From an uncultured Pseudomonadales bacterium (GTDB lineage: Bacteria > Pseudomonadota > Gammaproteobacteria > Pseudomonadales > Azotimanducaceae), in assembly GCA_958296405.1 (NCBI GenBank), contig OY282519.1, positions 2,960,132 through 3,024,131 on the forward strand: a stretch of 64,000 bases of DNA, in the 5' to 3' direction. The notes beneath the pieces are model-generated. The model saw only the letters and a program-made list of their open reading frames with translations. It was not told the DNA's origin and made no database searches. Shown one piece after another: positions 22,522 to 43,137 of this stretch (the first letter of the stretch is position 1; each line of letters opens with the position of its first letter). The position numbers and the translations under genes are program-made.

Positions 22522-22551
22522 TGGGAACTCCCACAAGCAAAACAACGTGTT

Positions 22552-22571
22552 ACCCCGCGAGACCGCGGGGT
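22552..22571. repeat. 8-bp hairpin between the small gene and the TonB receptor
   Basis: ACCCCGCG and CGCGGGGT with a 4-base loop sit 31 bp before the receptor start and just after the small upstream gene. It could lower receptor expression relative to the first gene or act as an attenuator. Confidence 0.5.
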
Positions 22572-22577
22572 TGCCGG

Positions 22578-23240: not shown

Positions 23241-24374
23241 TCAAACCATGCCCTGCGGCTCTAGGCCCAAGAAATGTTGGCCGGCGGTTTGATAGTGGGA
23301 TTCGCGGCCTTGAACTTGCTGCGTGATCACGTGCGCGTCTTGGAAGCGGCGTTGAATGGCCCGATCCGCGAAGATGGCGGTGGCGCCGCTTAGGTTGTAG
23401 GCGATGTCCACCACCGCCGCGGATTGGCGGATGGCGTGTGTGCCGGCTAGGCGCAAAGCGACGCGTTCGGGCATGGTGATCGCTCCGTTCGCCTGCACGG
23501 AGCGCCACACGTCCCCTGCCGCCTCGAACAAGAGCGCCTTGGCGGCCCGCCACGTTGCCTCCGCCTTGCCGATTTGCTGCTGCACCACCGCGTCTTCGTT
23601 GAGCGGCCGTCGGGTGAAGCGCGGCCGCTTGTCGGCGCAGAGCGCGAGGGTGGCGTCCAAGCCGGCGCGCGCATTGCCGAGCGCCACGCAGCCAAAGCCG
23701 CAGGCGAACAGCAGCTCTTGCGGGATCACATAGAGGGGCCACGGCGCCCGCGGCGGCACGACCAACGGCATCATGCGCCCGGCTGGCACGAACAGTTCGC
23801 GGGCGCGGAAGCCAAAGCTGCCGGTGCCGCGCAAGCCCTGCACTTGCCACACGTCCACGAACTCCACGTCGGCGCGCGGCAACAGGCAGAGTCGCGCCGG
23901 TTGGCCGCCACCAGCCACCAACGCGGCAATCCAGTTGGCGTGGCGGCAGCCGCTGGAGAACATCCACTGCCCGGTGAGCCGGTAGCCGCCGGCGGTTGGC
24001 GTCGCTTCCACTGCGCCTTGCGGCGGGCCGTTCGCCACCACGGTGTCCGGGTCGCCCCACACCTCCTGCGCCAACGCCGCCGGCGCCCGGGCGCAGACGG
24101 TGGCGAACACGCTGCCCTGGTTGAAGCACCAGCCCACGCTGGCATCCGCTTGGGCGATGACGAACACCGCGCGCAGATACTCAAGCCAATCCGCCTCTTC
24201 GCCGCCGACGGAGCGTGGCGCCAACAGGCGGAACAGGCCCAGCGCCTTCATGGCGTCCGCGAGGGCCGCTGGCAACTCGCGCCCGGCATCGATGGCGTCT
24301 GCGGCGGCCCTGACCTCGGCGACGAGGGATTCGGCGCGGGCGACCGGCGTGAGCGCGCCGTTGTCTGTGTGCAT
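23241..24374 (-). CDS. Acyl-CoA-dehydrogenase-fold flavin monooxygenase-like protein (HsaA/group D type)
   Basis: The 377-residue protein has an ACAD fold but lacks the strict dehydrogenase signatures. It shows ALADAMKALGLFRLLAPRSVGG, ADASVGWCFNQGSVFATVCA, a beta domain with YRLTGQWMFSSGCRHANWI, and the C-terminal AIRQSAAVVDIAYNLSGATA and QDAHVITQQVQGRESHYQTA. These fit the HsaA/HpaB-like oxygenase component family, which takes reduced flavin from a separate reductase. It follows the MFS gene by 57 bp and may be the last gene of the halogenase operon. Confidence 0.8.
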   Translation of the reverse strand: MHTDNGALTPVARAESLVAEVRAAADAIDAGRELPAALADAMKALGLFRLLAPRSVGGEEADWLEYLRAVFVIAQADASVGWCFNQGSVFATVCARAPAALAQEVWGDPDTVVANGPPQGAVEATPTAGGYRLTGQWMFSSGCRHANWIAALVAGGGQPARLCLLPRADVEFVDVWQVQGLRGTGSFGFRARELFVPAGRMMPLVVPPRAPWPLYVIPQELLFACGFGCVALGNARAGLDATLALCADKRPRFTRRPLNEDAVVQQQIGKAEATWRAAKALLFEAAGDVWRSVQANGAITMPERVALRLAGTHAIRQSAAVVDIAYNLSGATAIFADRAIQRRFQDAHVITQQVQGRESHYQTAGQHFLGLEPQGMV

Positions 24375-24431
24375 GCGGAAAGTCTACGCCAAGGCGCACC
24401 GCCGCCGACAAATGCCGGGCCGCGCTCGGCG

Positions 24432-25823
24432 CTAGCCGCTGGCGGCGCGGCGGCGTTCCGCCAGTTCCGCTTCCATCACGGCGATGGTGGAGCGGTCTAA
24501 GCGATAGAACAGGATGGCGGCGGCGCCGATGAAGGAGAGCGCGGCGGGAAACAACGTGAACATCAGGCGGATGCCCAGCATGGCGGTTTCGGTTTGCGGC
24601 TGGTTCGCCACGAAGCCGAACAGCGCCAAGATGTAGCCGGCGAGCCCGGCGCCGACGGCGAGGCCCATCTTGGCAGCGAAGCCGCCGCCGGAATAGATGA
24701 GCGCCGTAGTGCGGCGGCCGCTCTTCCACTCGCCGTAGTCTGCGCAATCCGCGTTCATGGCGAACACCAACGGCGCCAGCGGGCCGGCAATGAAGTTGCC
24801 GATGCAATTGAGCGCCAGCATCCAGCCGTACTGATCCGGCGTCAAGAAGAAGAACCCGCAGGACAGCACTGTGCTCAGCACCGTGAGGGCGATCATCAGG
24901 TGCTGCTTCTCGAAGCGCTGGGTGAGGAAGCGAGTGAATGTCACCCCCAGAATCATGGCGAGCGTGCCGGTGGAGAGAAACACCGCGGTGCTGTCGAAGA
25001 TCCAGAACAAGCTCGCGCCGTCGTCGCCCACGTAGTACTTGAAGTAGTACAGGATGCCGCCGTTGCGCACCGCCACCTGCATGAGCGCGAACACGCCAGA
25101 CACAAACAGCGCGAGCCAAGGCACGTTGCGCGACAGGGCCGTGAGGTCTCCCCGCATGTTGGATTGCTGCCCGACGGTTTGCACACGTTCCTTGGTGGTG
25201 GCAAACGTCACCCAGAACAGGGCTATCGAGAAGCCCGAGAAGATCAGCATGGTGAGCCGGAAGCCCTCGGCTTCGTCGCCGCCGCCCAAGATGTTCTTGA
25301 ACGGCGTCACGAACGTGCCGATCAGCCAGGCGGCGCCAAAGGCACACACAAAGCGGTACGCGGACACCTTCACACGCTCGTCCGAGAAAGGCGAAATCAC
25401 TCCCATCAGCGCCGAGTAGGGAATGTTGATGGCCGTGTAGGCAAGCATCATCAGCGAGTAGGTGACGTAGGCGTAGACGAGCTTGCCGGTGTCTGAAAGC
25501 GCTGGACTGGCGAACATCGCGTAGCCGAGCAGCCCGTAGGGAACCGCCATCCACAGCAGGTATGGCCGGTACTTCCCCCAGCGCGTCTCGGTGCGGTCCG
25601 CGACCAGCCCCATCGCCGGGTCGCTGACGGCATCCACCGCCTTGGTGACCAAAAACATCGTGCCCACCGCGGCCGGGTGCAAGCCGAACACATCCGTGTA
25701 GTAGTACAGCAGGAAGATGTTGAACACTTGAAAGTAGAAGTTGGAGGCGGCATCCCCCAAACCGTAGCCGAACTTCTCGGTGAACTTCAGCGTCTCGGCG
25801 GCCGAGCGTGTGGGTGCGGCCAT
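24432..25823 (-). CDS. MFS sugar transporter, glycoside-pentoside-hexuronide (GPH) type
   Basis: The 463-residue, 12-helix carrier starts at an ATG at 25823; the longer open frame upstream is shadow. GPH features are clear: KFGYGLGDAASNFYFQVFNI at the N-terminus, VTKAVDAVSDPAMGLVADRT, and TRWGKYRPYLLWMAVPYGLL. These carriers import glycosides with H+ or Na+. It follows halogenase 1 by 44 bp in the same direction, and it probably brings in the sugar released by the upstream glycosidases. Confidence 0.92.
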   Translation of the reverse strand: MAAPTRSAAETLKFTEKFGYGLGDAASNFYFQVFNIFLLYYYTDVFGLHPAAVGTMFLVTKAVDAVSDPAMGLVADRTETRWGKYRPYLLWMAVPYGLLGYAMFASPALSDTGKLVYAYVTYSLMMLAYTAINIPYSALMGVISPFSDERVKVSAYRFVCAFGAAWLIGTFVTPFKNILGGGDEAEGFRLTMLIFSGFSIALFWVTFATTKERVQTVGQQSNMRGDLTALSRNVPWLALFVSGVFALMQVAVRNGGILYYFKYYVGDDGASLFWIFDSTAVFLSTGTLAMILGVTFTRFLTQRFEKQHLMIALTVLSTVLSCGFFFLTPDQYGWMLALNCIGNFIAGPLAPLVFAMNADCADYGEWKSGRRTTALIYSGGGFAAKMGLAVGAGLAGYILALFGFVANQPQTETAMLGIRLMFTLFPAALSFIGAAAILFYRLDRSTIAVMEAELAERRRAASG

Positions 25824-25867
25824 GTGAGGCCCTCCAGGATTGATGGGCGAGTGCTTGGGGGCGAGGG

Positions 25868-27358
25868 CTAGCTCGCCGCGGCCTTGCAGTAGTAATCGAT
25901 GAAGCGCTGATGTTCCGGCAGTTGCTGCACCAGCCGGTCCACCGAGCCGTGGATGCCGGCCAAGAACTGCGTCAGTTCCTCTTCCGTCATCATGTTGACG
26001 ATGGGATGGTATTGCTCCGGTTCGAGCCCCTGCCCCATCATCACCTGAATCCAAGACGTTTCGCCAAACAGTTCCGTCGGCACCTTGAACACCCGCCCGG
26101 CCTGCTTGAACAGCTCGATGCGATGGGTGAGGGAATCCGGCACGTCCATGGCGCGGCACTGCAACCAGAAATCGCTGTCCGCGCGGCGGGTGACGTGGTA
26201 GTGCAGGATGATGAAATCGCGCACGTTGTCGATCTCGAAGTTCATTTGGCTGTTGAACTCGTCGATGTCTGGCGCCCGAATGCCGTCGTAGGGGAACATT
26301 TGCATCAAGCGAATCAAGCTGCGCTGAATGAGGTGGATGCTGGTGGATTCCAACGGTTCGATGAAACCGGAAGCCAAGCCCACCGCCACGCAGTTCTTCT
26401 CCCAATGCCGACGGCGCTGGCCGGCGCCGAAGCGAATGACGCGCGGCTCCGTGAGCGCGTCGCCTTCAACGTTGCCCATGAGCTGCCCAACGGCCTCGTC
26501 GTCGGACCAGTGGCGGCTGCTGAACACCACGCCGTTGCCCACCCGGCGCTGCAGGGGGATGCGCCATTGCCAGCCGGCCGCCCTGGCCATGGCGCGGGTG
26601 TAGGGGATGGGCGGCGCCACGGCCTTGGTTTGCACAGCCACGGCGCGGTCGCAAGGCAGCCAGTGCCCCCAATCCTCGTAGCCGATGTCCAGTTGCTGCC
26701 CGATCAGCAAGGCGCGAAAGCCGGTGCAGTCGATGAACAAGTCCCCTTCCACCAGTTGCCCGGAACGCAGGCGGATGCCGGTGATGAAGCCATCTGCCGG
26801 GTCTTGCAGCACCGTTTCGATCATCCCCTCTTGGCGTTTCACCCCGTGCTCCTCGGCAATGCCGCGCAGGAACTTGGCATACAAGGAGGCGTCAATGTGG
26901 TAGGCGTAGTTCAGCCTGTTGTTCGGCAGCACGGCGAAGCGGCCGCGCTTGGCGGCCAGCCACTCGTTGCAGTAGGCGCCGTATTCGCGGCTGATGCCCA
27001 AGCGCTTGCCCTTCAGCCAAAAATGTTGAAAGCCGGCGGCCCAGCTGTCTTTGCCGGCCCAGCCGAAGGAATGGATGTAGTCCGCGCCGACATCGCGCCA
27101 GCCTTCGAAGGAGATGCCCAGCTTGAAGGTGGCCTGCACCGCCTTGAGGAAATCCTGCTCCTTCACCTTCAGCAGTTGGTGGAAGGTGATGAGGGTGGGA
27201 ATGGTTGCCTCGCCCACGCCGACGGTGCCGATTTCCTCGGATTCCACCAAGGTGATGTCCAGCGTTTTGCCGATGAGCTTCGACAGCGCCGCCGCGGTCA
27301 TCCAACCGGCGGTGCCACCGCCGGCGATCACAACCCGATGAATCCTTTTGTTTGTCAC
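25868..27358 (-). CDS. FAD-dependent tryptophan-halogenase-family protein 1
   Basis: The protein has 496 residues from a GTG. It has the FAD motif GGGTAGW (13-19), the catalytic Lys at 79 in ATFKLGISFEGW, the halogenase signature WQWRIP near 262, and the active-site Glu in GFIEPLESTSIHLIQ near 335. Flavin halogenases use FADH2, oxygen and chloride or bromide to make HOX for aromatic halogenation, and need a separate flavin reductase. Relatives beside TonB receptors, SapC and cupin genes (for example BrvH) act on small indoles, but their natural substrate is unknown. All catalytic residues seem present. Confidence 0.93.
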   Translation of the reverse strand: MTNKRIHRVVIAGGGTAGWMTAAALSKLIGKTLDITLVESEEIGTVGVGEATIPTLITFHQLLKVKEQDFLKAVQATFKLGISFEGWRDVGADYIHSFGWAGKDSWAAGFQHFWLKGKRLGISREYGAYCNEWLAAKRGRFAVLPNNRLNYAYHIDASLYAKFLRGIAEEHGVKRQEGMIETVLQDPADGFITGIRLRSGQLVEGDLFIDCTGFRALLIGQQLDIGYEDWGHWLPCDRAVAVQTKAVAPPIPYTRAMARAAGWQWRIPLQRRVGNGVVFSSRHWSDDEAVGQLMGNVEGDALTEPRVIRFGAGQRRRHWEKNCVAVGLASGFIEPLESTSIHLIQRSLIRLMQMFPYDGIRAPDIDEFNSQMNFEIDNVRDFIILHYHVTRRADSDFWLQCRAMDVPDSLTHRIELFKQAGRVFKVPTELFGETSWIQVMMGQGLEPEQYHPIVNMMTEEELTQFLAGIHGSVDRLVQQLPEHQRFIDYYCKAAAS

Positions 27359-27385
27359 GGCATCCCCGGCGCGACCGCTCGCGCG

Positions 27386-28405
27386 CTACCCGTTCAACCT
27401 TTGGGCGAGCTTCGCCCGCAGCTGCTTCGCCGCCGCCTCGCCAAGCGGCGCCAACGCGCCTCTGGCCGCTTCTGGAATGTGCTCGTGGGTGGCGTCGCCC
27501 GCGTCGAACACATAGTGGTTGAAGAGCCCGCGCCACGCTTCCCGTTGCCGCGGCGGCAGATCGCGCAGCGCGAGGATGCCATGCATCAAGGCATCTGCTG
27601 GCGAGCCCAGATACATGGGGCTGGCCAGCCACCAATAGTTCACCAACAGGTTGAAGGGCGCCAAGGACTCGACATGGTGCCACCACATGCTGGGAATGAA
27701 GAGCGCGTCGCCCGGCCCCAAGGTGGCGGTTTTGGCGTGGCGCATGGCCTCGGCGAAGCGCGGGTGGCGGGCCAAGTCCGGCGCGGCGAAGTCCACCAAG
27801 CTCACTGGCTGGCCGGCCGGGGTTTTGTCCAACGGCCCCACATAGAGGCTCGCCAACTGCTCCGGCGGCAGCAGGGTGAAGCGCCGCTCACCGGCCACCA
27901 CGCAGGCCAAGTTGTTCGGAAAATCGTAGTGCGCGGCGATGCGGGCTTGGTTGCCGAGCCAGAAGCTCACCACGGCTTGCTCGGACGGCACCTGCACATC
28001 GTTGTGGGCGCGAAAGCCCGGCAGCCACGCCTCCACCGACGTGGAGCCAATGTAGATGGATGCCAAGTGCGCCTCGCGCGCGGGGTCTGCCAGCTTGCCC
28101 AGCACTTGGGCCAAGGTGGCGCGGCCACGTTGGAAGTTGAAGCCAGTGCAATCCGCGTTGTAGAAAAACCGTCCGTTGGCATGCGCTTCGGCGGCGTAAA
28201 CGGTGAGCGGTCGCTCGGTGTGGAACTGGCCGAGGTAGCGGGTTGCCGCCGCCAGCGATTGGCCACATTCGCGCACCGCCGGCCAATCGCGGACAGCGCC
28301 CTTCAGCAGCACCGGCTCGGAAGACTCGAAGCATCGCGGCGCCACGCCGCCAGCGTCGCTTGCCGCGCTGTGGACGCAAGGCAGGTCAGCCAACCAATCC
28401 ATCAT
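27386..28405 (-). CDS. Cupin-like (JmjC/cupin_8) putative Fe(II)/2-oxoglutarate oxygenase
   Basis: The 339-residue protein has the cupin_8 core: an entry strand EPVLLKGAVRDWPAV, the metal HxD in IAAHYDFPNNLACVVAGERR near residue 170, and the distal His in FIPSMWWHHVESLAPFNLLV. Relatives hydroxylate amino-acid side chains or small molecules. Its start overlaps the end of the SapC gene by 20 bp, and it lies 27 bp before halogenase 1, so it is in the same transcript. Cupin-SapC-halogenase sets recur near TonB receptors; its reaction here is unknown. Confidence 0.87.
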   Translation of the reverse strand: MMDWLADLPCVHSAASDAGGVAPRCFESSEPVLLKGAVRDWPAVRECGQSLAAATRYLGQFHTERPLTVYAAEAHANGRFFYNADCTGFNFQRGRATLAQVLGKLADPAREAHLASIYIGSTSVEAWLPGFRAHNDVQVPSEQAVVSFWLGNQARIAAHYDFPNNLACVVAGERRFTLLPPEQLASLYVGPLDKTPAGQPVSLVDFAAPDLARHPRFAEAMRHAKTATLGPGDALFIPSMWWHHVESLAPFNLLVNYWWLASPMYLGSPADALMHGILALRDLPPRQREAWRGLFNHYVFDAGDATHEHIPEAARGALAPLGEAAAKQLRAKLAQRLNG

Positions 28406-29129
28406 CCAAATCCAAGCGCTGGTTCTTGATCCCGATCAAAGTTCTCAGGTGAGCCATCGAGGCCAACATCATGAACAGCGGCATCAAGAAGCCTTGTGCC
28501 TGCAAGTCGCCCAGCTCCTCCCCGGACAACTCTTGCAGCTTCTCCTCCGCCACGCAGTGAAAGCCGAGCAGTTCGTTCACGGAGCCGTCCTGAAGCGGTA
28601 TCTCGAACGTGACCGCCTCGATCAAATCAAGCTCCTGCAAGGCTTCGACGAATGCCTTGGAGTGCATGATGGCGCCGTAGATGGCCTCCACCAAGTCCGC
28701 AGTCTGCTCCAGAAAGTCCGTGTATTCGCCCAACGGCTGAAACAGCGCCTCCCCCTCCTCGGTGTTGACCCGGGGATGATCCACATCCAAGGCCAACACA
28801 CGCACGCTTTCGCCTTGGTCAGGGTCTTCGGGCGGTTGGATGGCAATGAGAAAGGGCTCCCGTCGAATCATGGCAGGGATGTAGCCGGCCTGCCAGCCGT
28901 AATCGTCCAGAAAGAGGTTTTCGTTCTCCTGCAAGCCGAACAGGGCCACCGGATGGATGCCGCCATCGCTGCCTTGATGAAACAGGATTGGGTAGAACGC
29001 CTGCACGTCGCGGAACTCGAACGGAAAGGTGGCCACGTGCATCACGTTGTCGCCAAAGCGGGCGGAGCGCTCGGTGATGACTTTGAGGTGCTGATGTTCC
29101 TCGTGGTCGAGCATGATGAAGTTGGTCAT
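28386..29129 (-). CDS. SapC-family protein
   Basis: The 247-residue protein matches SapC-like proteins: HLKVITERSARFGDNVMHVA, EFRDVQAFYPILFHQ, ENLFLDDYGWQAGYIPAMIR and RREPFLIAIQ, then an acidic middle and a C-terminal helix PLFMMLASMAHLRTLIGIKN. The name comes from a Campylobacter S-layer locus, but in proteobacteria the family is found with TonB receptors and flavin halogenases and has no known biochemical role. A GGAGG site precedes the ATG; the gene overlaps the cupin gene downstream. Confidence 0.88.
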   Translation of the reverse strand: MTNFIMLDHEEHQHLKVITERSARFGDNVMHVATFPFEFRDVQAFYPILFHQGSDGGIHPVALFGLQENENLFLDDYGWQAGYIPAMIRREPFLIAIQPPEDPDQGESVRVLALDVDHPRVNTEEGEALFQPLGEYTDFLEQTADLVEAIYGAIMHSKAFVEALQELDLIEAVTFEIPLQDGSVNELLGFHCVAEEKLQELSGEELGDLQAQGFLMPLFMMLASMAHLRTLIGIKNQRLDLDDGLVG

Positions 29130-29174
29130 TTGCCTCGCCTCCTCTATGGCTTCTTTGTGTGCTTCTACGGGGTT

Positions 29175-30731
29175 CTATTGCGTTTGGGCCGCCCGCAGCG
29201 CGTTCAAGAGCTGCCGATTGGTCGGCAAGCGCTGCGCCAGCTTGTCCGCCTGCCGCGCGGTGTCGCGGAACACCGCCGCCGCCCGTTGCGCCGTTGGCGC
29301 ACAGCCCTGAGCATCTTGGTAGCGCGGCCTGAAACCGAGGCCATAGAGCACATACTGATAGCTCGCCGAAGGAAAGAGTTCATCGAGCAACGGCGCGTCC
29401 TCGTGCCACGGCGGCTGCTGCTGCCACAGGGTGAGCTTATCGCGCAGTGCCTCCGGGCATGTTTCCGGCGCCCGGTTGTCCCGCCAATACTCGCTGCCTT
29501 CACGGCGCGACAGCATGTAATGCAGCTTCAGAAACTCGACGATGCGTTGCCAATGGTGGCGCATCTTCGCGTTGAAGCGCTTGGCCAGCACGGCCATGAT
29601 CTCCCGGTCTCTCGGCAATTGCCGGCCGATGATGGCTGCGGCTTGCTCGATGAGCGCGAGCGCGGACGCCTCCAGCGGCTCGACGAAGCCAGCGGCCAGG
29701 CCCACCGCCACGCAATTGCGCGTCCACGGCTCCTCCCGGTAGCCGGGCTCGAAGGGGATGCTGCGGTAGTCGAGCGCGTCGACGTCGATGCCAGGCGAGG
29801 TGTGCTGGATGTGGCGCTGCAGCGCCTGCATCGCGGTGGCTTCGTCGATATGGGCGCGGCTATGCACATAGCCCAGACCGCGGCGGGTTTGCAGGCCGAT
29901 GTCCCAAATCCAACCGGCGCTTTGCGCCGTGGCGCAGGTCGCCGAAGCGATGGCGTCCTGTTCGGCGTCCGCGTACGGCACCTGCACGGCGATGGCGCGG
30001 TCGTTGAAGAGCCAGCGCCGCACGGAGGTGAACGCGCACCCATAGTGCGCCCCAATCAAAAGCGCCCGCTGCCCGCTGCAATCCACGAACAGATCGCCGG
30101 CGACGCGCTGCCCGCCGCCGAGCACCAGCGCCGCCAAATCTCCGTCAGGGTGGCGCTCGACGCCCTCGACGGTGCCGGAGAGGTGCCGCACGCCTTGGCG
30201 ATCCACCGCGTGGCGGCGCAGCAAATGCGCGAACTTGGCGGCATTCAGGTGGTAGCCGTAGTTCACGGTGAAGGCGTAGTCCGGCGCGCTGGCCTGTTTG
30301 GGCGCAAGCCCCTCGGCGATCACCCGCGCTTGCGGCGTGACGGCCTCAGCAAACGCCGGCCTCCCGCCCTGCGCCAGCCAATGCCGCGCTGGGTTCATGC
30401 TCGCGTACTCGGCAGGCCAACTGAAGGGATGGCAGTATGCGTCCGCGCCGTCGTCCTGTGTCCAGCCGAAGAACCTGGTGCCCTGTTTGAAGCTCGCCTC
30501 TGCGCCGCGGACGAAGTCGGCTTCGGACAAGCCGATGCGCTGCAGCGTCATGCGCATGGAAGGCCAAGTGCCTTCGCCGACGCCGATGGTCGGCACGTCT
30601 GGGGATTCGACCAACAGCACCGCCGGCAGTTCCGCGTTGCGCCGGCGGCGCTCCGCAGCCAACACGTTGGCTGTGATCCAGCCAGCCGTGCCGCCGCCGA
30701 CGATCACCACCGTGCGGGTTGGCCGATTCAT
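29175..30731 (-). CDS. FAD-dependent tryptophan-halogenase-family protein 2
   Basis: The 518-residue protein has the FAD motif GGGTAGW (12-18), the Lys at 82 in ASFKQGTRFFGW, and the Glu in GFVEPLEASALALIEQ. The signature WxWxIP reads WIWDIGL, losing the Pro. In known halogenases this motif is linked to suppressing monooxygenase activity, so the change may mean altered activity. It is only about one quarter to one third identical by eye to halogenase 1, so this is not a recent duplication. It lies 95 bp after the TonB receptor gene and 45 bp before sapC. Confidence 0.9.
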   Translation of the reverse strand: MNRPTRTVVIVGGGTAGWITANVLAAERRRRNAELPAVLLVESPDVPTIGVGEGTWPSMRMTLQRIGLSEADFVRGAEASFKQGTRFFGWTQDDGADAYCHPFSWPAEYASMNPARHWLAQGGRPAFAEAVTPQARVIAEGLAPKQASAPDYAFTVNYGYHLNAAKFAHLLRRHAVDRQGVRHLSGTVEGVERHPDGDLAALVLGGGQRVAGDLFVDCSGQRALLIGAHYGCAFTSVRRWLFNDRAIAVQVPYADAEQDAIASATCATAQSAGWIWDIGLQTRRGLGYVHSRAHIDEATAMQALQRHIQHTSPGIDVDALDYRSIPFEPGYREEPWTRNCVAVGLAAGFVEPLEASALALIEQAAAIIGRQLPRDREIMAVLAKRFNAKMRHHWQRIVEFLKLHYMLSRREGSEYWRDNRAPETCPEALRDKLTLWQQQPPWHEDAPLLDELFPSASYQYVLYGLGFRPRYQDAQGCAPTAQRAAAVFRDTARQADKLAQRLPTNRQLLNALRAAQTQ

Positions 30732-30825
30732 TGTCCGCTATTCGCCGCGCTGGCTTTTGGCTGCACACCAAAGGGGATGGTACTACGCGCCGGCCGCCGC
30801 CAGCGACGGCGCCCAACGAGGCCGG

Positions 30826-33816
30826 TTAGAATTTGTACCGGAAGCCTATGTTGTAGCGTGTGCCCAACTGGTCCGCGAACAGCGTTTGGCTTTCATCGCG
30901 CCCGAAGATATGTACCGTTTCGTCCGTGATGTTCAGCACATCGAGGTACGCCTGCACTTGGTCTGTGAACCAGTAGCTGGCGGACAGGTCGAGCTGTTGG
31001 TACGGCGCCACATACGTCGGCGGCCCGGAGCCCACATTCGTTTGGCCGGTGCCGGACAAGAACTCATCGCGCCAGTTGTAGGCCAACCGGACGCTGATGT
31101 CGTTCTTGTCATAGAAGGCGATGAGATTGGCGGAGTCGCTCAAGCCAGTGAGCACGAACTGCTGCGCCAAACTGAAGTTGTCGTACCCCACGTCGGCATC
31201 CACGATGGTGGCGTTGACGATGGCGCCGAAGCCGCTCTCGCCGAAGTTGTGCTGGAGGACAAACTCCCAGCCACTCATGGTGGCCTCCTCGATGTTCACC
31301 GGCACGGTCAGGTTGAACGGCGCGGCCGGGTCTCGCCCTGCCACGCCCGAAATGGTGCCGGTTTCCGCGTTCACGCCCTCTGCGTCCGCACGGTTGGCGA
31401 TGATCCAAGAGTAGAGCGTGCCACCATCCGAACTGCCGGTGGCTTGCCGCGCTTCGTCGCCCAATGGGCCCAGCGCCGGATGCGGCAAATTGAACAACGT
31501 TTCCACCACAGATGAGGTGCCGATGAAGTTTTCCACGTCTTTGTGGAAGTAACCAACGGCGACATAGCTGTCCTCGCCGTAGTACCACTCCAAGGAGAGA
31601 TCAACGTTGCTGGACTCGAACGGCAGCAAACTGGGGTTGCCGCGGTTGCCCGTGCCGCCATTGATGCGCACCAAGGAGTCAATGGTTTGGCCGCCCTGGA
31701 TGTCCTCGTAGTTGGGCCGCGTGATGGTTTCGCTGTACGAAACCCGTGCCACCAAATCGTCTGTCAGCCCAAACTTGAAATCGACATTAGGCAGCACGAA
31801 ATCATAGTCGCCTTTCAAGTTGGTGAACTCGGGATTCTCCGAGCGCACCGCGGACAGTTCGTTGCCGGATGCCCAATTGATGGCGACATACGCCGGGGAG
31901 AGTGCCCGCGAGGCGACGTCCGTTTGTTCATAACGCAAGCCGATGCGCACGCCGATGGGGATGGCGCCCGCCTCGAACGACAGGTTGGCCTGCACATAGG
32001 CGGCGATGGAGTCTTCCTCCGTGCGTCGGTCTGACGTGTAGTTGTCCGATGCGCAAAGCCCGGTGCCGCAGGGCCCCATGTCCGGCAATTGGAACACGTT
32101 CGCCTCGCCGGACGCCATGAGCGCCTCGGTGCGCGCGATCAACTGCACCATGTCGAAGGTGTAGAAGTCTGTTTGGCGACGGGGATCGTCGCCGCCGGGA
32201 ATCTCGTCGAACGCCTTGCGGGCGGAGGCGGGCCGCATCAGGTCTGCAATGGCGCCGAGAGGCGTTTGCTGATTGTTCCAGGCATCGCGCTGCACGACGG
32301 ACTGCGCGGAGCGGTTGTTCACCTCCGTGAGCTGCACGCCGAAATCGATGCTCTCGATGAAGTCGAAGTCCATGTCGAAGGTGCCACCCGCCCGTGCCTG
32401 CTCGATGTCCATCCTCGAATAGTCATTGGTGAAAACGCTGCCGGTGACCTGCATGTCATCTGGGCTCAACGGGTCGCTCAAGGTCACTTCCAAAAGTGGC
32501 AGTTCCTCGCCGAAGTAGCCGGTGGTGCGGTCCCGTGTCCATGCCGCGACGGAGAGCAGCGATTCACTCCCGTAGGGGCTGTCCGGCGAGCGCTCGGCCA
32601 TGGAGTCGTGGTAGTCGAACTCCAGCGACACGCGATCCGACACATCCCAAACCACATTGAGGCCCAAGGCGCCATTCTGCGCTTGGAAGGCGTCCTGTCC
32701 GGCGCCCATGGAGAAGTCGCTGCCGGAGGAGTTCTCCGTGTAAATCAGCGGCGTGGCTTGGGGGCCATCGCTCCAACTCGTTTCTTGGCCGCCGAAGTTG
32801 AACCAAGCGGAGAGGTTGTTGTAGGTGCGCGCCAGCTCCAATTCCGAGTATGTGTAGTCCAACGTGGCTTCCACCCGCTCGTTCGGCTGCCACTGCAGCG
32901 TGAGCTGGCCGTTGGTGCGCACGCGGTCGTACTCCGCCAACTCATAGCCGATGACTTGCGGCACCGAGTAGAGGTCATCATCGCCAGGGCGGTTCTGTTG
33001 GTTCGCGTCACTCGCCAGCGGAATGCCGCCCCACTCGGAGCGTCCCACGCCACACCAACAGTTGTTCACCACTCCGTCGAAGGTGCGCCATCCACCGACG
33101 CTGGCGCGGTTGACGGCGCTGTCCCGCGATTGGCGCACAGCGCTCACTGCAACGCCGAAGGTGTCGTCCGCGAAGGTGTTCGAGAACAGCGCGGACAGTT
33201 CCTCCGTCCACTCCTTGCCTTCTGCCGTCGAGGTGTCGTGGTGGCCGCTGGCGGCGGCGGTGAACTGCATGCCGGGCGCATCCAAGGGGCGCGTGGTGCG
33301 GATGTTGATGGTTGAGCCGATGCCGCCCGTCGGCACATTGGCCTGCCCGCTCTTGTACACCTCCACCGAGGAGACGCCCTCAGACGCGAGGTTGCCGAAG
33401 TCAAACGAGCGGCTCAGCTCGTCGCTGGTGGCCATTTGCCGCCCGTTCAAGAGCACTAGGTTGAACGCCGGGCCGAAGCCGCGCACGGTCACCTTGGCGC
33501 CCTCGCCACGTTCCCGGTCTATGGACACGCCAGTGATGCGCTGCAGGGATTCGGCCAAGTTGCCATCCGGGAAATCGCCGATGTCCTCGGCCGTGATGGC
33601 GTCCACCACCCCGTCTCGGGCCCGCTTCAGCTCCATGGACTGCTTGAGGCTTTGGCGAATGCCGACGACGACGATCTCTTCGATCGGCCTCTGCACTTGT
33701 GCCTCGCTGGCGGGGCCCTCCTGCGCATAGGCCACCGGCGCACCGACCGCAATCCCCTTCAAGGCGAGGGAAACAGCCAAAGTGAGCGGCGACTTCTTGA
33801 AGCGCTCGTTACCCAT
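30826..33816 (-). CDS. Large TonB-dependent receptor (Caulobacter-type, TIGR01782-like)
   Basis: The 996-residue outer-membrane receptor has a signal peptide ending APVAYAQE, a TonB box region (IEEIVVVGIRQSLKQSMELK), and the plug motifs DAITAEDIGDFPDGNLAESL, RITGVSIDRERGEGAKVTVR and NLVLLNGRQMA. The long barrel ends TRYNIGFRYKF with a terminal Phe. The IRQSLK...AEDIGDFPD pattern marks the subfamily that imports plant or algal oligosaccharides in Caulobacter and Xanthomonas. The gene has its own sigma70 promoter and a LacI-type operator, and it heads the run receptor-halogenase 2-sapC-cupin-halogenase 1-MFS. Confidence 0.95.
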   Translation of the reverse strand: MGNERFKKSPLTLAVSLALKGIAVGAPVAYAQEGPASEAQVQRPIEEIVVVGIRQSLKQSMELKRARDGVVDAITAEDIGDFPDGNLAESLQRITGVSIDRERGEGAKVTVRGFGPAFNLVLLNGRQMATSDELSRSFDFGNLASEGVSSVEVYKSGQANVPTGGIGSTINIRTTRPLDAPGMQFTAAASGHHDTSTAEGKEWTEELSALFSNTFADDTFGVAVSAVRQSRDSAVNRASVGGWRTFDGVVNNCWCGVGRSEWGGIPLASDANQQNRPGDDDLYSVPQVIGYELAEYDRVRTNGQLTLQWQPNERVEATLDYTYSELELARTYNNLSAWFNFGGQETSWSDGPQATPLIYTENSSGSDFSMGAGQDAFQAQNGALGLNVVWDVSDRVSLEFDYHDSMAERSPDSPYGSESLLSVAAWTRDRTTGYFGEELPLLEVTLSDPLSPDDMQVTGSVFTNDYSRMDIEQARAGGTFDMDFDFIESIDFGVQLTEVNNRSAQSVVQRDAWNNQQTPLGAIADLMRPASARKAFDEIPGGDDPRRQTDFYTFDMVQLIARTEALMASGEANVFQLPDMGPCGTGLCASDNYTSDRRTEEDSIAAYVQANLSFEAGAIPIGVRIGLRYEQTDVASRALSPAYVAINWASGNELSAVRSENPEFTNLKGDYDFVLPNVDFKFGLTDDLVARVSYSETITRPNYEDIQGGQTIDSLVRINGGTGNRGNPSLLPFESSNVDLSLEWYYGEDSYVAVGYFHKDVENFIGTSSVVETLFNLPHPALGPLGDEARQATGSSDGGTLYSWIIANRADAEGVNAETGTISGVAGRDPAAPFNLTVPVNIEEATMSGWEFVLQHNFGESGFGAIVNATIVDADVGYDNFSLAQQFVLTGLSDSANLIAFYDKNDISVRLAYNWRDEFLSGTGQTNVGSGPPTYVAPYQQLDLSASYWFTDQVQAYLDVLNITDETVHIFGRDESQTLFADQLGTRYNIGFRYKF

Positions 33817-33906
33817 CAGAGTGTCCCTCCACCAGTTTGGGTTGGCGTGCTTTTGCCAAATCGGTGGCTAAGCCAAAACTACGCGGCAAGCCGCCACTCA
33901 GCAGAA

Positions 33907-33920
33907 TGACAACGCTGTCA
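33907..33920. promoter_or_regulatory. LacI-type operator 1 (TGACAACGCTGTCA)
   Basis: The palindrome, extended to ATGACA-ACGC-TGTCAT, has a central CG step as in LacI/GalR operators. It begins about 7 bp downstream of the -10 box of the TonB receptor promoter, over the expected start of transcription, so a bound repressor would block initiation. The same 14-mer occurs once more, upstream of the glycosidases next to the lacI-family gene. Confidence 0.8.
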
Positions 33921-33926
33921 TGCTGG

Positions 33927-33955
33927 CTTATATGAAACCGCACAGGCGATGTCAA
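33927..33955 (-). promoter_or_regulatory. Sigma70 promoter of the TonB receptor/halogenase operon
   Basis: On the minus strand TTGACA (33955-33950) and TATAAG (33932-33927) are separated by exactly 17 bp, close to consensus. The start point should fall near 33920, inside the LacI-type operator. The untranslated leader to the ATG at 33816 is about 100 bases. Confidence 0.8.
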
Positions 33956-33980
33956 CGCGCTTTTGCCACCGATGCAGCGG

Positions 33981-33999
33981 GGCGTCCACATCGGACGCC
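33981..33999. repeat. Small hairpin between the GH3 gene and the TonB promoter
   Basis: GGCGTCC and GGACGCC with a 5-base loop form a 7-bp stem, 25 bp upstream of the -35 box and about 65 bp after the GH3 stop. It may help to end the glycosidase transcript, although no T-run follows. Confidence 0.45.
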
Positions 34000-34062
34000 G
34001 AAATGCGTCGGAATTGGGCTTGCGCGGATTGGTTCGGCGCAAGGGCGGAGGCAGCCCCTTCC

Positions 34063-35877
34063 CTAGCCCGGAGGCGCCGCCGATGCAACCGCCAGCGCGT
34101 AGCCGGGGGGAAACAGCGGCTCGCCCGCCGCGGCGCCGCCACTATCCGTGTTCGGGCGCTTGGGCCACGGCAACGGCAGCCGCCCGGCGAAGCCATAGTG
34201 TCCGAACAGCACCTCGGCGACGCCCTGCCCCTCCGAACCCGGCAGCCAGCCGACAACGAAAGCGGTGGAGGCGTCGAGCTCGGCGTTCACCACCAACGGC
34301 CGTCCAGAGATCAAGAGCGTCACCACCGGCACGCCCGTGGCAGCGATGCGTTGGATGCAGGCCAAATCCTCCGGATGCGTGCGCGTGAGCTCAAGGCTCC
34401 GACCATACGGCCCCAAGGGGTTGATGATGCCCCGCACCGCGGAGCCGGTATCTTGGATCACCTCATCGCCAGGGCGAATGTCGCCAAAGCCCTCGGCGTA
34501 TGGCTTCTCGCCGATCACGACGAGGGCCGCGTCGTGCCGTGCCGGATCCGCTTCGGCGCCGCTCAAGTCCGCGCTGAGTTCCGCCTGCGGCGCCATGGCG
34601 CGGATGCCTTCCCAGATGGTGGTGCCATCAATGGTGGCATTGCCGCTCTCGCCCTGCCAGCTCAAGGTCCAACCGCCACATTGGTGGCCGAGGTTGTGGG
34701 CGTTCTTGCCGGCCACCAGCAGGCGTTGGCTCGGCGCCAAGGGGAGCAGGCGCTGGCGGTTCTGCAGCAGCACCAAGGAGGCGCGCACAGCGCGCTTGGC
34801 CACTTGCCGATGCGTTTGCGAGCCGAAACTGGCGGCGCCGGCGCCGGAGCGCTCGGCGGGGCGCGGCGCATCGAACAAGCCGTGGCGCAACTTGGTGCGC
34901 AGGATGCGGCGCACCGCGTCGTCGATGCGCCCCATGGGAACGTGGCCGCCCCGCACCTGCGCCTCCAGCGCGTCCATGCACTCGCGCCAAGCCTCGGGCA
35001 CCATGAGCATGTCCAAGCCCGCGTTCACGCACTTGCGCACGGCGACGCCATAGTCGTCGTCCAAGTACTTCACGCCGTCCCAGTCCGACACCACGATGCC
35101 CTCAAAGCCCAACCGCTGCTTCAGTAGCTCGGTGACGAGAAAGCGGTGGCCGTGGCACTTGTCGCCGTTCCAGCTATTGAAGGAGACCATCAAGCTCTTC
35201 ACCCCGGCTTCGAGGGCCGGGTAGTACGGCGCCACATGGGTGGCCTCGAAAGCCTCCCAACCGAGGGTCGTCTCGCCTTGGTCCATGCCGTGTTGGGTGC
35301 CGCCATCCCCCGCCCAGTGCTTCACGCAGGCCATGACGCCCTCGTCCTGCATGGCGCGCACGTAGCTCACGCCGAACTCGGCGACGCGCTGCGGGTCGCA
35401 GCCGAAACTCTCGTAGGTGCGCCCCCATTGGCTGTTGCCGACGACAGCGAGGGTGGGCGCGAAGTTCCAATCCAAGCCGGTGGCGCGCATCTCCTTGGCG
35501 GTGATGCGGGCGATCTCGGCCGCCAGTTGCGGGCTGCCGGCAGCGCCGAGGCCGATGTTGTGCGGGAAGATGGTGGCGCCGCGCACGTTGTTGTGGCCAT
35601 GCACCGCGTCAATGCCGAACAAGATGGGCACGCCCAGGCTGTCCGCATCCGCCACCGCCGCCTGCCAGAACTGGTCGTTCATCGCCACCCAGTCCGCCGG
35701 CGCGTTGCCGCCTGGGTGGGAGCCGCCGCCAGAGAGCACGGCTCCCAAGGCGTGCGCCTTGACGTCCTCTGGAGTGACGGCCAACCGCTCGGCCATGGTC
35801 ATCTGACCGATCTTCTGGCGCAGGCTCATTCGGTTGAGCCAGCCCGACAGGAAGGCTTCCTCGCGCAAGTTCGCCAT
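34063..35877 (-). CDS. Glycoside hydrolase family 3 (exo-beta-glucanase/glucosidase type)
   Basis: The protein has 604 residues from an ATG at 35877; the upstream open frame is shadow of the GH2-like gene. The barrel shows MSLRQKIGQMTMAER, FGIDAVHGHNNVRGATIFPH, FAPTLAVVGNSQWGRTYESF and KHWAGDGGTQHGMDQGE, with the nucleophile Asp in GIVVSDWDGVKYL. The second domain contains LLVAGKNAHNLGHQCGGWTL and the GEKPYAEGFGDI acidic loop. This pattern fits ExoP-type enzymes that release glucose from beta-glucans. No signal peptide is seen. It starts 5 bp after the GH2-like gene, so the two form one operon under operator 2. Confidence 0.93.
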   Translation of the reverse strand: MANLREEAFLSGWLNRMSLRQKIGQMTMAERLAVTPEDVKAHALGAVLSGGGSHPGGNAPADWVAMNDQFWQAAVADADSLGVPILFGIDAVHGHNNVRGATIFPHNIGLGAAGSPQLAAEIARITAKEMRATGLDWNFAPTLAVVGNSQWGRTYESFGCDPQRVAEFGVSYVRAMQDEGVMACVKHWAGDGGTQHGMDQGETTLGWEAFEATHVAPYYPALEAGVKSLMVSFNSWNGDKCHGHRFLVTELLKQRLGFEGIVVSDWDGVKYLDDDYGVAVRKCVNAGLDMLMVPEAWRECMDALEAQVRGGHVPMGRIDDAVRRILRTKLRHGLFDAPRPAERSGAGAASFGSQTHRQVAKRAVRASLVLLQNRQRLLPLAPSQRLLVAGKNAHNLGHQCGGWTLSWQGESGNATIDGTTIWEGIRAMAPQAELSADLSGAEADPARHDAALVVIGEKPYAEGFGDIRPGDEVIQDTGSAVRGIINPLGPYGRSLELTRTHPEDLACIQRIAATGVPVVTLLISGRPLVVNAELDASTAFVVGWLPGSEGQGVAEVLFGHYGFAGRLPLPWPKRPNTDSGGAAAGEPLFPPGYALAVASAAPPG

Positions 35878-35882
35878 GGGGC

Positions 35883-37241
35883 CTAGTCTTGCGCCACGAG
35901 GAACGGCAAGTTGGCGTGGCCGACGCCGCCTTGGCCGTCTCCTACATACACAAACAGCCGATAGGCGCTTGGCTGCGTCGGCGCCTGCAGCTGGGTCTCG
36001 CTGGCTGCCGGGCCCAGCACGGCGGCCGCGAGCGCTTCTGGAATCTCCTCTGGGTCGCCCCCGCTTTGTGTGGCTGCGCTTTCCCGCAACAGGCGCCAAT
36101 CGAAACGCAGCGCGTCTTGCTCCGGGTCGCTCGCCTGCACTGCGGCGGCATAGGTTTGCCCTGGGCGCAGCCGCACCGAGTCTTCCGCCGCTTGGCCATC
36201 AAGGGCCAAGCCAGTGACCGCCGGCGCTCGGTTGGCCGGCCAATCGCCGGTCCAGATGCGCTGCAGCACATCCACCGCCTCGGTGCGCCGCCCGTCGGCG
36301 GTGAACAGCCCGTACCAAGTGGGCGTGCGCTCCTGCTTCTGCCCCCACAGGAAGGCGTAGTTGCCAATGACGCGCCCGGCCAACGGCGCCAGCGCCTGCT
36401 CGTAGCCCGCGCGGTAGCGCTGCGCCTTCGCCGAGCTGGTGGGTTCGATGGGGGCGCCCCACTCCGTGGCGTCCACTTCCCAATGGCCGATGGTGCCCCA
36501 TTCGGTGACCATGAGCGGCATGTCGAGGCCAAGCTCCGCCAAGGCGTCCGGCAGCCCGGCAAGCCCGCCGTACACCTGCACGCTCAAGAAATCCAAATCC
36601 GGCGCGCGCTGGCGAATCACTTGGGCGAGTTCCGCGCTGATGCCGGCGGTGGTGGTCGTAGTGGGATGGTGCGGGTCCAGTTCGTGAATCATCTTTGAGA
36701 GATCGTTCACGGCGTCGTAGACGCGGGGGTTGCTGTAATCGTGATTGAGCTCGTTGCCAATGATCCAAGCCAATAGCGCGGGATGGCCGCGGTGCGCCAG
36801 CACCTGCTCCCGCAGGCGCTCGAATTGCCGCGCCACGGCCTCGGCGTCGTCATAGTCGAAGCCGTGGCGTTCCCGCGCCACGTCCAAGCACAGCGCCACC
36901 GTCAGCCCAAACTCCGACGCCCGGTCCAAGATGGCGCCATCCTCCACGGCCCAGTTGCGCACCGAGTTGCCGCCGTGCTGGGGCAACGTGGCAAGATCGT
37001 TCGGATTTTGGCTGCCCACGCCCCGAATCACATAGGGCGCGTTGCCGCGATAGAGTTGGTAGTTGCCGGGTTCGCCGCGGATCTCCACATGCACCGGCCC
37101 TTCCTGAGATGGGCTGCCGGCGATGCTTGCCGAGAGCCAACGCGGGGTGCCGCTGCGATCTGCCTCTGGCTGCGGGGCCGCGGCGACGCCACTCGCCAAA
37201 GCGCCCGCCACCGCCACCATCACATGAGCCTGCACACTCAT
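35883..37241 (-). CDS. Exported GH2-like (clan GH-A) glycoside hydrolase
   Basis: The protein has 452 residues from an ATG at 37241 with a signal sequence (HVMVAVAGALASGVAAAPQ). The TIM barrel begins YVIRGVGSQNPNDLATLPQHGGNSVR; the acid/base Glu is in WIIGNELNHDYSNP, and the nucleophile Glu is in LMVTEWGTIGHWEV. A C-terminal beta domain of about 110 residues (VTGLALDGQAAEDSVRL) follows and is probably Ig-like. The order NE...TEWG marks clan GH-A; family GH2 or a near relative is most likely. It would cut glycan in the periplasm, feeding the GH3 enzyme and the GPH carrier. Confidence 0.82.
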   Translation of the reverse strand: MSVQAHVMVAVAGALASGVAAAPQPEADRSGTPRWLSASIAGSPSQEGPVHVEIRGEPGNYQLYRGNAPYVIRGVGSQNPNDLATLPQHGGNSVRNWAVEDGAILDRASEFGLTVALCLDVARERHGFDYDDAEAVARQFERLREQVLAHRGHPALLAWIIGNELNHDYSNPRVYDAVNDLSKMIHELDPHHPTTTTTAGISAELAQVIRQRAPDLDFLSVQVYGGLAGLPDALAELGLDMPLMVTEWGTIGHWEVDATEWGAPIEPTSSAKAQRYRAGYEQALAPLAGRVIGNYAFLWGQKQERTPTWYGLFTADGRRTEAVDVLQRIWTGDWPANRAPAVTGLALDGQAAEDSVRLRPGQTYAAAVQASDPEQDALRFDWRLLRESAATQSGGDPEEIPEALAAAVLGPAASETQLQAPTQPSAYRLFVYVGDGQGGVGHANLPFLVAQD

Positions 37242-37340
37242 TGGTTCAATCTTCCGCCTCCCCGAAGCGCCGCAGCGCACACCGTCGCTAACAGCATGGC
37301 CGGCGTCTTGCGTCGGCGGGGCGCTAATCTGCCTATGGAA

Positions 37341-37354
37341 TGACAACGCTGTCA
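37341..37354. promoter_or_regulatory. LacI-type operator 2 (TGACAACGCTGTCA)
   Basis: The same 14-bp palindrome as at 33907 lies 100 bp upstream of the GH2-like start and 126 bp beyond the stop of the lacI-family gene. On the minus strand its left part reads CTTGACAGCG, so the operator overlaps a possible -35 hexamer TTGACA; a good -10 at 17 bp is not evident. Confidence 0.75.
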
Positions 37355-37479
37355 AGCTGGAATGTGCGAGGCTCGATTCAGAGTCTGTGGCTAGCCCTGC
37401 CGCCAATCGGCGTCGCGCAGGGCGCGGCGCGGCGGATCGTGGCACCGGCGGCAGCGACAGCCGGCGTGTGCCTCGCGCC

Positions 37480-38514
37480 TCAGGTGGTGGATTCCCGAAC
37501 CACGATCTCACAGGCAAAGGGAGCCGCGGGGGGTTGCGTCGCTTTGCCATTCAACAGGTCCATCAATAGCTCGGCGGCGGTTTTCGCCATCTCGCGGATG
37601 GGCTGGCGGACGGTGGTGAGGGGCGGCCACAGGCGCGACGCCAACGGGGTGTCGTCAAAGCCCACCACGGAAAGGGCGTGCGGGATCGCGAGGCCCCGCT
37701 GCCGCGCCGCCAACAGCGCGCCGGCGGCCATGTCGTCGTTGCTGGCGACGATGGCGGTGGGCGTCTGCGGCAGGTCCAGCAGTTCGGCGGCGGCGGCCTT
37801 GCCAGAATCGAAGTTGAAGTAGCCCTGCCGGACGAGCCGCCCCTGATAGCGAATGCCATGCTTCGCCAATGCCTGTCGATAGCCGGCGAAGCGCTTGGCC
37901 GCGGCGCCGTGGTCTGGGTCGCCCTTGATGAAGCCGATGGCGCGGTGCCCGCGCTCGATGAGGAACTCGGTGAGCGCGAAGCTCGCAGCTTGCTCCTCGC
38001 ACAAGATGGTCACTTGCCCTGCCGTCGCCACCTTCGGCGCGATGGCCGCGAACGGAATCTCCAGCCGGCGCAGCAGGCGCTGCAGGTCTGGCAGGTCTCC
38101 CATGGGCGCCGGCAAGATGACGCCCTCCACCCGCGCTTGGGTGATGAAGCGCTCAACTTGGTCGACGAGTTCCGCGCTCGGCAAGGTCAACGGCCGCAGC
38201 AAGAGGGAGTAATCGCGCTCCTCGCACGCGCTCAACGCGCCGTCGAGCACGTCCTTCATGTAGCTGAACTCATCCGGACTGCCATAGACCAAGCCGAGCA
38301 CCCAAGACCTGCGGCCAGACAAAGAGCGGGCCGCGACGTTCGGTCGGTAGCGTAAGCGGCCCACCGCTTCGAGCACTTTGTCTCGTGTGCTCTCGCGGAC
38401 GTTCGGTTCGTTGTTGACGACCCGCGAGACCGTCTTGATGGAGACCCCGGCCTGCTCGGCGACGTCGAAGATCGTCGCCTTGCCCTGCCGCGCTTCCCGC
38501 TGCTTGGAAGTCAC
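37480..38514 (-). CDS. LacI-family transcriptional regulator
   Basis: The protein has 344 residues from a GTG. It has an N-terminal helix-turn-helix (TIFDVAEQAGVSIKTVSRVV), the hinge helix NVAARSLSGRRS, then a periplasmic-binding-like sensor domain (VLGLVYGSPDEFSYMKDVLDG, GHRAIGFIKGDPDHGAAAKR, AIVASNDDMAAGALLAARQR, VVGFDDTPLASRLWPPLTTV). The hinge sequence is standard for binding a palindrome with a central CG. Its neighbours, and the two identical palindromes at 33.9 and 37.3 kb, make it the likely repressor of both the glycosidase pair and the TonB/halogenase operon. The inducer is probably a sugar. Confidence 0.94.
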   Translation of the reverse strand: MTSKQREARQGKATIFDVAEQAGVSIKTVSRVVNNEPNVRESTRDKVLEAVGRLRYRPNVAARSLSGRRSWVLGLVYGSPDEFSYMKDVLDGALSACEERDYSLLLRPLTLPSAELVDQVERFITQARVEGVILPAPMGDLPDLQRLLRRLEIPFAAIAPKVATAGQVTILCEEQAASFALTEFLIERGHRAIGFIKGDPDHGAAAKRFAGYRQALAKHGIRYQGRLVRQGYFNFDSGKAAAAELLDLPQTPTAIVASNDDMAAGALLAARQRGLAIPHALSVVGFDDTPLASRLWPPLTTVRQPIREMAKTAAELLMDLLNGKATQPPAAPFACEIVVRESTT

Positions 38515-41952: not shown

Positions 41953-41953
41953 C

Positions 41954-43006: not shown

Positions 43007-43137
43007 GGGCTCTGTTCGATTGCCGTCCAAGGGTGGCTGCCGTTGCCGGCAAGCGCCTTTCGCGCCGGCAGCGGCGGGGCGAGGGTTTCACCTCAAGCGG
43101 GATGGTTCAAGAGAGACGGCCGCCCTAACGTCTAGCT

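Follow-up and report, generated by a model that had tools for sequence, protein, structure and literature searches.

We analyzed a 64,000-nucleotide window (bases 2960132–3024131 of contig OY282519.1) from the 3.83-Mb single-contig genome of an uncultured Pseudomonadales bacterium, in which a block of minus-strand genes at positions 23241–38514 combines glycan uptake genes with two flavin-dependent halogenase homologs, HalA and HalB, a SapC protein and a cupin_8 oxygenase. Together with a TonB-dependent receptor (TBDR), the last four proteins form a conserved cassette, and in other genomes halogenases of the same types are linked to receptors for varied sugars. We tentatively propose that the block is a LacI-controlled locus of the carbohydrate utilization with TBDR (CUT) type, acting most likely on β-1,3-glucan, and that the cassette modifies the precursor of its receptor before export.

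The cassette genes are encoded on the minus strand in the order TBDR (30826..33816), HalA (29175..30731), SapC (28386..29129), cupin_8 (27386..28405) and HalB (25868..27358). A scan of named genomes with an alignment of the SapC subfamily found 95 relatives, the best 80 of which were kept as loci, and gene presence in these SapC-selected loci was scored by tblastn with the window proteins. Besides SapC itself (80, by construction), the loci contain cupin_8 (80), HalB (79), the TBDR (78) and HalA (71), and the order TBDR–(HalA)–SapC–cupin_8–HalB on one strand is kept in nearly all of them, one locus (L092) being rearranged. The TBDR is missing from two loci (L038 and L076) and HalB from one (L111), all three truncated at contig ends; of the nine HalA-less loci, L076 alone is truncated there. 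Most of these loci repeat the five-gene core in its order, which puts the arrangement beyond chance. Many of them come from related genera and represent few independent events. The closest named SapC relative, 99% identical, is from a metagenome-assembled "uncultured Pseudomonadales bacterium" (OY282379.1). Two loci (L168 and L092) contain two SapC genes per cassette, flanking a halogenase.

The co-occurrence of sugar genes with this set, which the first-pass annotation of the DNA had proposed for comparison, is found in part: LacI-like (45/80), GH3-like (43/80) and GPH-like (39/80) genes are frequent, some of the LacI and GH3 matches having 27–31% identity and possibly not being orthologs, and the GH158 (4/80) and HsaA (1/80) genes are rare. 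Given its presence in a single locus, the HsaA-like gene is not part of the conserved set, even though it lies in the same putative operon. SapC, for its part, must have a wider role. The family (PF07277) is present in 138 of 398 genomes sampled from the phylum, and we chose 60 SapC stretches (58 from among the listed phylum matches and two others), favoring good assemblies and spread over families. The wider role follows from the 36 stretches in which SapC stands alone, with none of the other seven profiles, receptor and halogenase included; 23 stretches contain a halogenase and a TBDR, and the sole TBDR-less case among the 24 halogenase-bearing ones (L169) has a weak halogenase match of 214 bits.

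Linkage of halogenases to receptors extends to loci that lack SapC, which is absent beside several receptor–halogenase pairs, the minimal form being a receptor followed by a single halogenase. Eight SapC-bearing genomes contain 52 halogenase matches (PF04820, E ≤1e-40) and 83 receptor matches (TIGR01782, TonB-Xanth-Caul), some first-look receptor candidates in two of the genomes having been left unscored. A same-strand TIGR01782 receptor ends ≤5 kb upstream of 46 of the 52 halogenases, against ~0.6% expected by a simple count, and in 23 of the 46 it lies ≤300 bp upstream. Seen from the other side, 30 of the 83 receptors have a halogenase ≤5 kb downstream; among the siderophore receptors (TIGR01783) scored in the same genomes, some candidates again being left aside, none of 34 has a halogenase within 5 kb. 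Of the six exceptional halogenases, G267 has a TBDR of another type upstream, next to a GH31 gene; G340 is beside a GH20 gene; and G234 precedes a complete cassette, at ~7 kb from its receptor. In a class-wide sample that was not selected for SapC (185 genomes, with up to 8 candidates scored in each and halogenases at E 1e-60 in eight genomes), 12 of the 19 halogenases outside the present genome have a same-strand TIGR01782 receptor ≤5 kb upstream. Two of the seven unlinked genes belong to a cassette (L278) whose first gene is preceded, at ~3.4 kb, by a TBDR of a different kind, one directly precedes a TBDR, one faces a TBDR–halogenase pair and one is at a contig end. The linkage recurs in five receptor groups (our grouping of the receptor tree) that differ in halogenase type and partner genes, and it is found on chromosomes and plasmids alike.

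The sugar enzymes encoded beside linked receptors differ from group to group, as judged from one or two scanned neighbors per locus. A group with HalA, SapC and LacI has a GH20 hexosaminidase in all five loci; one group with HalB only has α-amylase, pullulanase-type, cyclomaltodextrinase or GH31 genes in three of four loci, the fourth (L252) showing a helicase; of three loci in another HalB-only group, two show either GH95 together with a GH42-like enzyme or CBM15, and the remaining one an RND pump; and a further HalA–SapC group has agarase-type genes at two loci and GH16 at one, with FecR (L237) and a sugar kinase (L243) at others. The main group is characterized by GH3, GH16, GH1, MFS and LacI genes (109 neighbors from 26 loci, 4 of the 113 picked proteins having been omitted for size). 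Plasmids present a similar picture. From 24 plasmid records with HalB relatives of at least 43.9% identity, we opened ten by their halogenase, mostly annotated ones (45–56% identical), and in all ten a TBDR is beside the halogenase or heads the halogenase run, on the same strand upstream in eight and divergent in two; in three further records of the 24, reached via SapC, the TBDR is upstream in each, and one of the three, from Sphingomonas parapaucimobilis, has no annotated glycosidase in its vicinity. Plasmid neighbors include GH3, α-L-fucosidase, GH95, α-N-acetylglucosaminidase, GH43, GH9, β-xylosidase, α-amylase with GH97, and amylosucrase with GH32. On one Niveispirillum plasmid (L293), a TonB receptor is accompanied by four consecutive halogenase genes, and GH43/GH9 genes follow at a greater distance. 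In two plasmid loci another gene lies between TBDR and halogenase, encoding a 2-oxoglutarate (2OG)-Fe(II) oxygenase of another family in one and DUF6445 (PF20043) in the other (L296). DUF6445 is also found in L289, beyond the halogenase and on the opposite strand, and the one member that we tested has no solved relative by sequence. The distant HalB relatives taken as a contrast are a PrnB-containing, pyrrolnitrin-like cluster without a TBDR and a locus with GH68, LacI and TBDR genes. Because linked receptors sit beside enzymes for chitin, starch, xylan, agar, fucosides, sucrose and β-glucan, the constant partner of the halogenases is the receptor and not the sugar, and the set is accounted for neither by a single sugar nor by an aromatic aglycone.

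In the window itself, open reading frames (ORFs) and Pfam/NCBIfam profiles recover ten genes, all on the minus strand and in the order of the first-pass annotation, with one assignment revised: the enzyme read there as GH2-like (35883..37241, likely start at ATG 37241 rather than at the longest ORF start, 37550) is a GH158-type enzyme. Its residues 147–551 match the full domain of PDB 9oro ("Glycoside hydrolase family 158") at E 2.7e-87, followed by 6pal at E 2.8e-63, as against E 1.9e-4 for the GH2 Pfam model; by eye, the N-terminus of the enzyme resembles a signal peptide. Known members of GH158 are endo-β-1,3-glucanases. The adjacent GH3 gene (34063..35877, start likely 35877 rather than 36099; PF00933 and PF01915) encodes a β-glucosidase/exo-β-glucanase type whose closest structures are the β-glucosidase 5m6g, the exo-1,3/1,4-β-glucanase 3usz and barley ExoI, a β-D-glucan exohydrolase. 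A GH158-type enzyme together with an exo-β-glucanase-like GH3 therefore makes β-1,3-glucan, rather than an aromatic glycoside, the most likely sugar of the locus. The receptor matches TIGR01782 at 635 bits (cut-off 310). Downstream of HalB, a GPH-family sugar:cation symporter (24432..25796; PF13347; TIGR00792 at 376 bits, cut-off 231) is taken to start near 25796, since GPH profiles begin only at residues 211–213 of the over-long ORF that opens at 26405. The last gene (23241..24374) encodes a relative of the oxygenase component of the flavin monooxygenase HsaA, which scores 164 bits against the cut-off of 450 of the HsaA equivalog model (NF045629). With the starts taken above, the gaps from the TBDR gene to the HsaA-like gene are 94, 45, −20, 27, 71 and 57 bp, a spacing consistent with a single operon. 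SapC and cupin_8 each have a single match in this genome, and the halogenase family has two full-length matches and one weak partial match (20 bits) far away. Caulobacter vibrioides, taken as a control genome, gave matches to the SapC, cupin_8 and halogenase families.

The first gene of the block (37480..38514) encodes a LacI-family regulator (PF00356 and PF13377) with NCBIfam matches to LacI-family models (CytR, RbsR and others), each under its own cut-off. A whole-genome search for the 14-bp palindrome TGACAACGCTGTCA with ≤1 mismatch finds two places only, one per predicted operon: 37341..37354, 100 bp upstream of the likely GH158 start, and 33907..33920, 91 bp upstream of the TBDR start. 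A reversed control pattern gives one chance match genome-wide. A palindrome of the form TGNNANCGNTNNCA, sought from −400 to +150 of the ORF start (background 0.054 per 550 bp), precedes 83 of 115 halogenase-linked receptors and 5 of 36 receptors without a halogenase; the linked receptors belong mostly to one clade, so the counts are not independent. Among linked receptors, 50 of the 55 with a LacI profile match in the locus have the palindrome, as do 33 of the 60 without one. Because operator-like sites stand before each operon and the palindrome is enriched at linked receptors, the regulator likely controls both operons, presumably as a repressor, which supports the earlier description of the block as a LacI-controlled sugar uptake locus. 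The combination of a TBDR, an inner-membrane carrier, a degradative enzyme and a regulator in one locus places the block among the CUT loci, as exemplified by the sux locus of Xanthomonas campestris with its LacI-type regulator, TBDR, inner-membrane sugar carrier and degradative enzyme (PMC1790865). Unlike sux, the block adds HalA, SapC, cupin_8 and HalB; the main text of that paper mentions neither halogenase nor SapC.

The catalytic residues of the cassette enzymes are intact. HalB is closest to 6y1w (E 8e-199) and 6frl (E 5.5e-148), of the Xcc4156/BrvH group, and has the marks of a canonical variant-A flavin-dependent halogenase, namely GxGxxG, the catalytic lysine, WxWxIP and the active-site glutamate; in an alignment of 79 HalB sequences, GGGTAGW, Lys79 and E-S-T are found in all 79 and WxWxIP in 76. 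HalA, a PF04820 flavin enzyme closest to 2pyx, retains Lys82 and Glu354, with WIWDIG in place of the variant-A motif WxWxIP and E-A-S in place of E-S-T, and its 71 aligned relatives have WxWxIG (69) or WxWxIA (2) and, in all, the lysine, the glutamate and E-A. The same division is seen in a wider set of 231 enzymes typed by the better of two profiles, a few of which are counted twice owing to overlapping stretches: B-type enzymes have WxWxIP in 122 and E-S-T in 128 of 132 sequences, and A-type enzymes have WxWxIG in 85 and E-A-S/T in 96 of 99. The cupin_8 protein (PF13621) is a JmjC-type Fe(II)/2OG oxygenase whose best PDB relative is FIH, followed by JMJD5 and JMJD7. These three are protein hydroxylases. 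The alignment to FIH covers residues 157–264 with HxD...H intact, and each residue of the iron triad (H159, D161 and H243) is conserved in ≥97% of 80 sequences; unlike these relatives the protein is bacterial, its N-terminal half did not align to FIH, and the position that we take to be the 2OG-binding lysine of FIH is an arginine. SapC (214.9 bits, cut-off 28.9) has no PDB relative by sequence, and its AlphaFold2 model, of high confidence (predicted local distance difference test, pLDDT, 94.5), found no match in PDB or viral structure libraries. The family name recalls a role in S-layer export; no S-layer family was found among the block proteins with Pfam/NCBIfam profiles.

Based on these observations, we posit that GH158 would cut the polymer, the TBDR would import oligosaccharides across the outer membrane, GH3 would free glucose and the GPH carrier would move sugar through the inner membrane, with LacI governing the two operons through the two identical operators. 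HalA, SapC, cupin_8 and HalB should act in the cytoplasm, because no obvious signal peptide is seen by eye at their N-termini, and there they would serve the receptor: the receptor precursor may be halogenated or hydroxylated on aromatic side chains, and perhaps on others, before export, with HalB as a canonical halogenase, HalA as a divergent halogenase or hydroxylase, cupin_8 as an FIH-like protein hydroxylase and SapC as an adaptor. We favor this hypothesis because the receptor linkage holds whatever the sugar, and because of precedents among related flavoproteins. Xcc4156 and BrvH brominate indoles (PMC7336383, PMC5945002), and Xcc4156 is described as having an open active site and no halogenation activity on free tryptophan, its authors suggesting peptides (PMC7336383). 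HalB matches these enzymes over nearly its full length with the lysine, WxWxIP and E-S-T kept, and a second halogenase gene lies upstream of brvH, as in the block (PMC5945002). QhpG, a flavoprotein monooxygenase of the cysteine tryptophylquinone pathway that is structurally like halogenases, hydroxylates peptidyl tryptophan in the cytoplasm (PMC7876137).

Several observations weigh against this proposal. QhpG and LodB are analogies only, because HalA scores 42 bits against the QhpG equivalog cut-off of 240 and HalB 24 bits against the LodB cut-off of 400; in contrast to the QhpG system, no radical SAM enzyme, protease or quinone enzyme is found among the block proteins. C2orf60 (3al5), another PDB relative of cupin_8, is presumably a tRNA-modifying enzyme and no protein hydroxylase. 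In the eight genomes, 53 of the 83 TIGR01782 receptors lack a halogenase ≤5 kb downstream and three exceptional halogenases (L282 and two genes in L284) have no receptor by profile, as is also the case for L279 and L280 in the class-wide sample, where one ORF each was also scanned with Pfam and where profiles can miss distant receptors. In an alignment of 116 halogenase-linked receptors with 36 other TIGR01782 receptors, six of the latter lying inside linked clades and four receptors of intermediate label having been dropped, no aromatic, histidine or cysteine column marks all linked groups. Three columns pass a loose filter, I166, D at 313 and F858, and are unlikely targets; mean contents of Trp, Tyr, His and Cys are alike in all receptor classes. 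A comparison of 77 receptors from HalA-containing loci with 19 from HalA-less loci gives W262-G263, W348 and Y359 among the contrasts. The best candidate, W262-G263, is changed in one HalA-less Lysobacter-type clade and some deep branches and is retained in three other HalA-less lineages. In the AlphaFold2 model of the receptor (pLDDT 84.1, TBDR fold), W262-G263 and W348 map to long loops two and three, predicted to be extracellular because of how the strands alternate, where these residues might just as well form sugar-binding platforms. Nor are the enzymes singled out by tree distances: the correlation with the TBDR is 0.79–0.92 for HalA, HalB, SapC, cupin_8, GPH and LacI and 0.56 for GH3 (0.81–0.89 on 29 loci holding all but GH3), so that LacI and GPH track the TBDR equally well. 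Linkage alone cannot separate the receptor from its cargo as the substrate. Receptor modification, the other option of the first-pass annotation, fits the data best, though nothing in the scans directly shows a modified residue.

The failure of the residue scans to reveal a common site would be expected if the target were another protein of the system, that is SapC itself, TonB/ExbD, a secreted hydrolase or the carrier. SapC accompanies the halogenases in many loci and its model matched no solved structure. We regard such a target as unlikely on balance, for SapC is missing from several receptor–halogenase pairs and a cassette of Sphingomonas parapaucimobilis has no annotated glycosidase or carrier nearby; with SapC, glycosidases and carrier each absent at some loci, the receptor is the most constant protein seen. 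Still less probably, the cassette makes a small aromatic compound, halogenated or hydroxylated, that acts as an antimicrobial or signal and is produced upon sugar sensing, with the sugar operons providing regulation only. BrvH halogenates free indole in vitro (PMC5945002), the LacI-type site links the operon to sugar supply, and a deep-ocean metatranscriptome study reads halogenase transcripts of Colwellia and phage as competition or altered virus–receptor contacts (PMC11337851). Against such a product, profiles of the block proteins reveal no biosynthetic or export genes in the cassette, its minimal form is a receptor with one downstream halogenase, siderophore receptors show no such linkage (0/34), and the indole turnover of BrvH is so slow that its authors doubt indole as the substrate (PMC5945002).

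A glycosylated aromatic nutrient was the main idea of the first-pass annotation. In such a scheme the TBDR would import an aromatic glycoside, GH3 would free its aglycone, and the halogenases, the cupin and the HsaA-like enzyme would modify the aglycone. The block does bring glycosidases, a carrier and a relative of an aromatic monooxygenase together, and flavin halogenases act on electron-rich rings (PMC7336383). In view of the β-1,3-glucan type of the GH158 and GH3 enzymes, and of the same halogenase types following receptors beside GH20, GH13/GH31, agarase, GH43/xylosidase, GH95 and amylosucrase genes, we reject this as the main explanation and consider it very improbable, because the linked glycans carry no aromatic aglycone; HsaA, moreover, is confined to one of the 80 loci, and Pfam/NCBIfam profiles found no ring-cleavage family among the block proteins. 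We give the least credence of all to adjacency of halogenase and receptor by shared ancestry alone, with no functional tie. The small number of independent events behind many of the loci would suit it; recurrence of the linkage in five receptor groups, on chromosomes and plasmids and in the class-wide sample argues the opposite.

The accessory oxidative cassette is thus widespread, receptor-linked and unexplained. If the cassette does modify its receptor, SapC, whose predicted fold matched no solved structure, would have a context. The native substrates of Xcc4156 and BrvH are stated to be unknown in the report on Xcc4156 (PMC7336383). Genomic linkage here suggests a receptor partner, which narrows the substrate question to one protein partner. 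More doubtfully, Proteobacteria may in general tailor sugar-uptake TonB receptors, whatever the glycan, before export: flavin halogenases in the cytoplasm would brominate, chlorinate or hydroxylate Trp/Tyr, in many cases together with SapC and a JmjC or different 2OG oxygenase. Such tailoring would represent a new type of modification of outer-membrane proteins and the natural function of the Xcc4156/BrvH halogenase group; protein-level halogenation or hydroxylation would then be widespread in bacterial glycan uptake. The receptor-modification reading would be new if proved. A search of open-access literature found no paper tying these halogenases to sugar receptors as substrates, an earlier mention being quite possible, given that the first-pass annotation describes such sets as known, and the words TonB, SapC and cupin are absent from the text of PMC8269204.

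Scans of the window for sigma-70 promoters and terminators gave matches at chance level, and no tandem repeats were found at 17–21 kb. The AT skew of 0.31 at 18001–20000 is well above that of the remainder of the window and perhaps reflects codon use of minus-strand membrane oxidase genes. Adjoining the block, a second TonB receptor (20272–22740, minus strand) resembles the zinc receptor ZnuD (352 bits, cut-off 950) and has His/Asp/Glu-rich stretches. On the other side, an α/β hydrolase (38547–39428, minus strand) has macrolide esterases as its top NCBIfam models, under their cut-offs (268 versus 420 bits), and ntrC, ntrB and glnA lie near the block at 40531–45330 on the minus strand.

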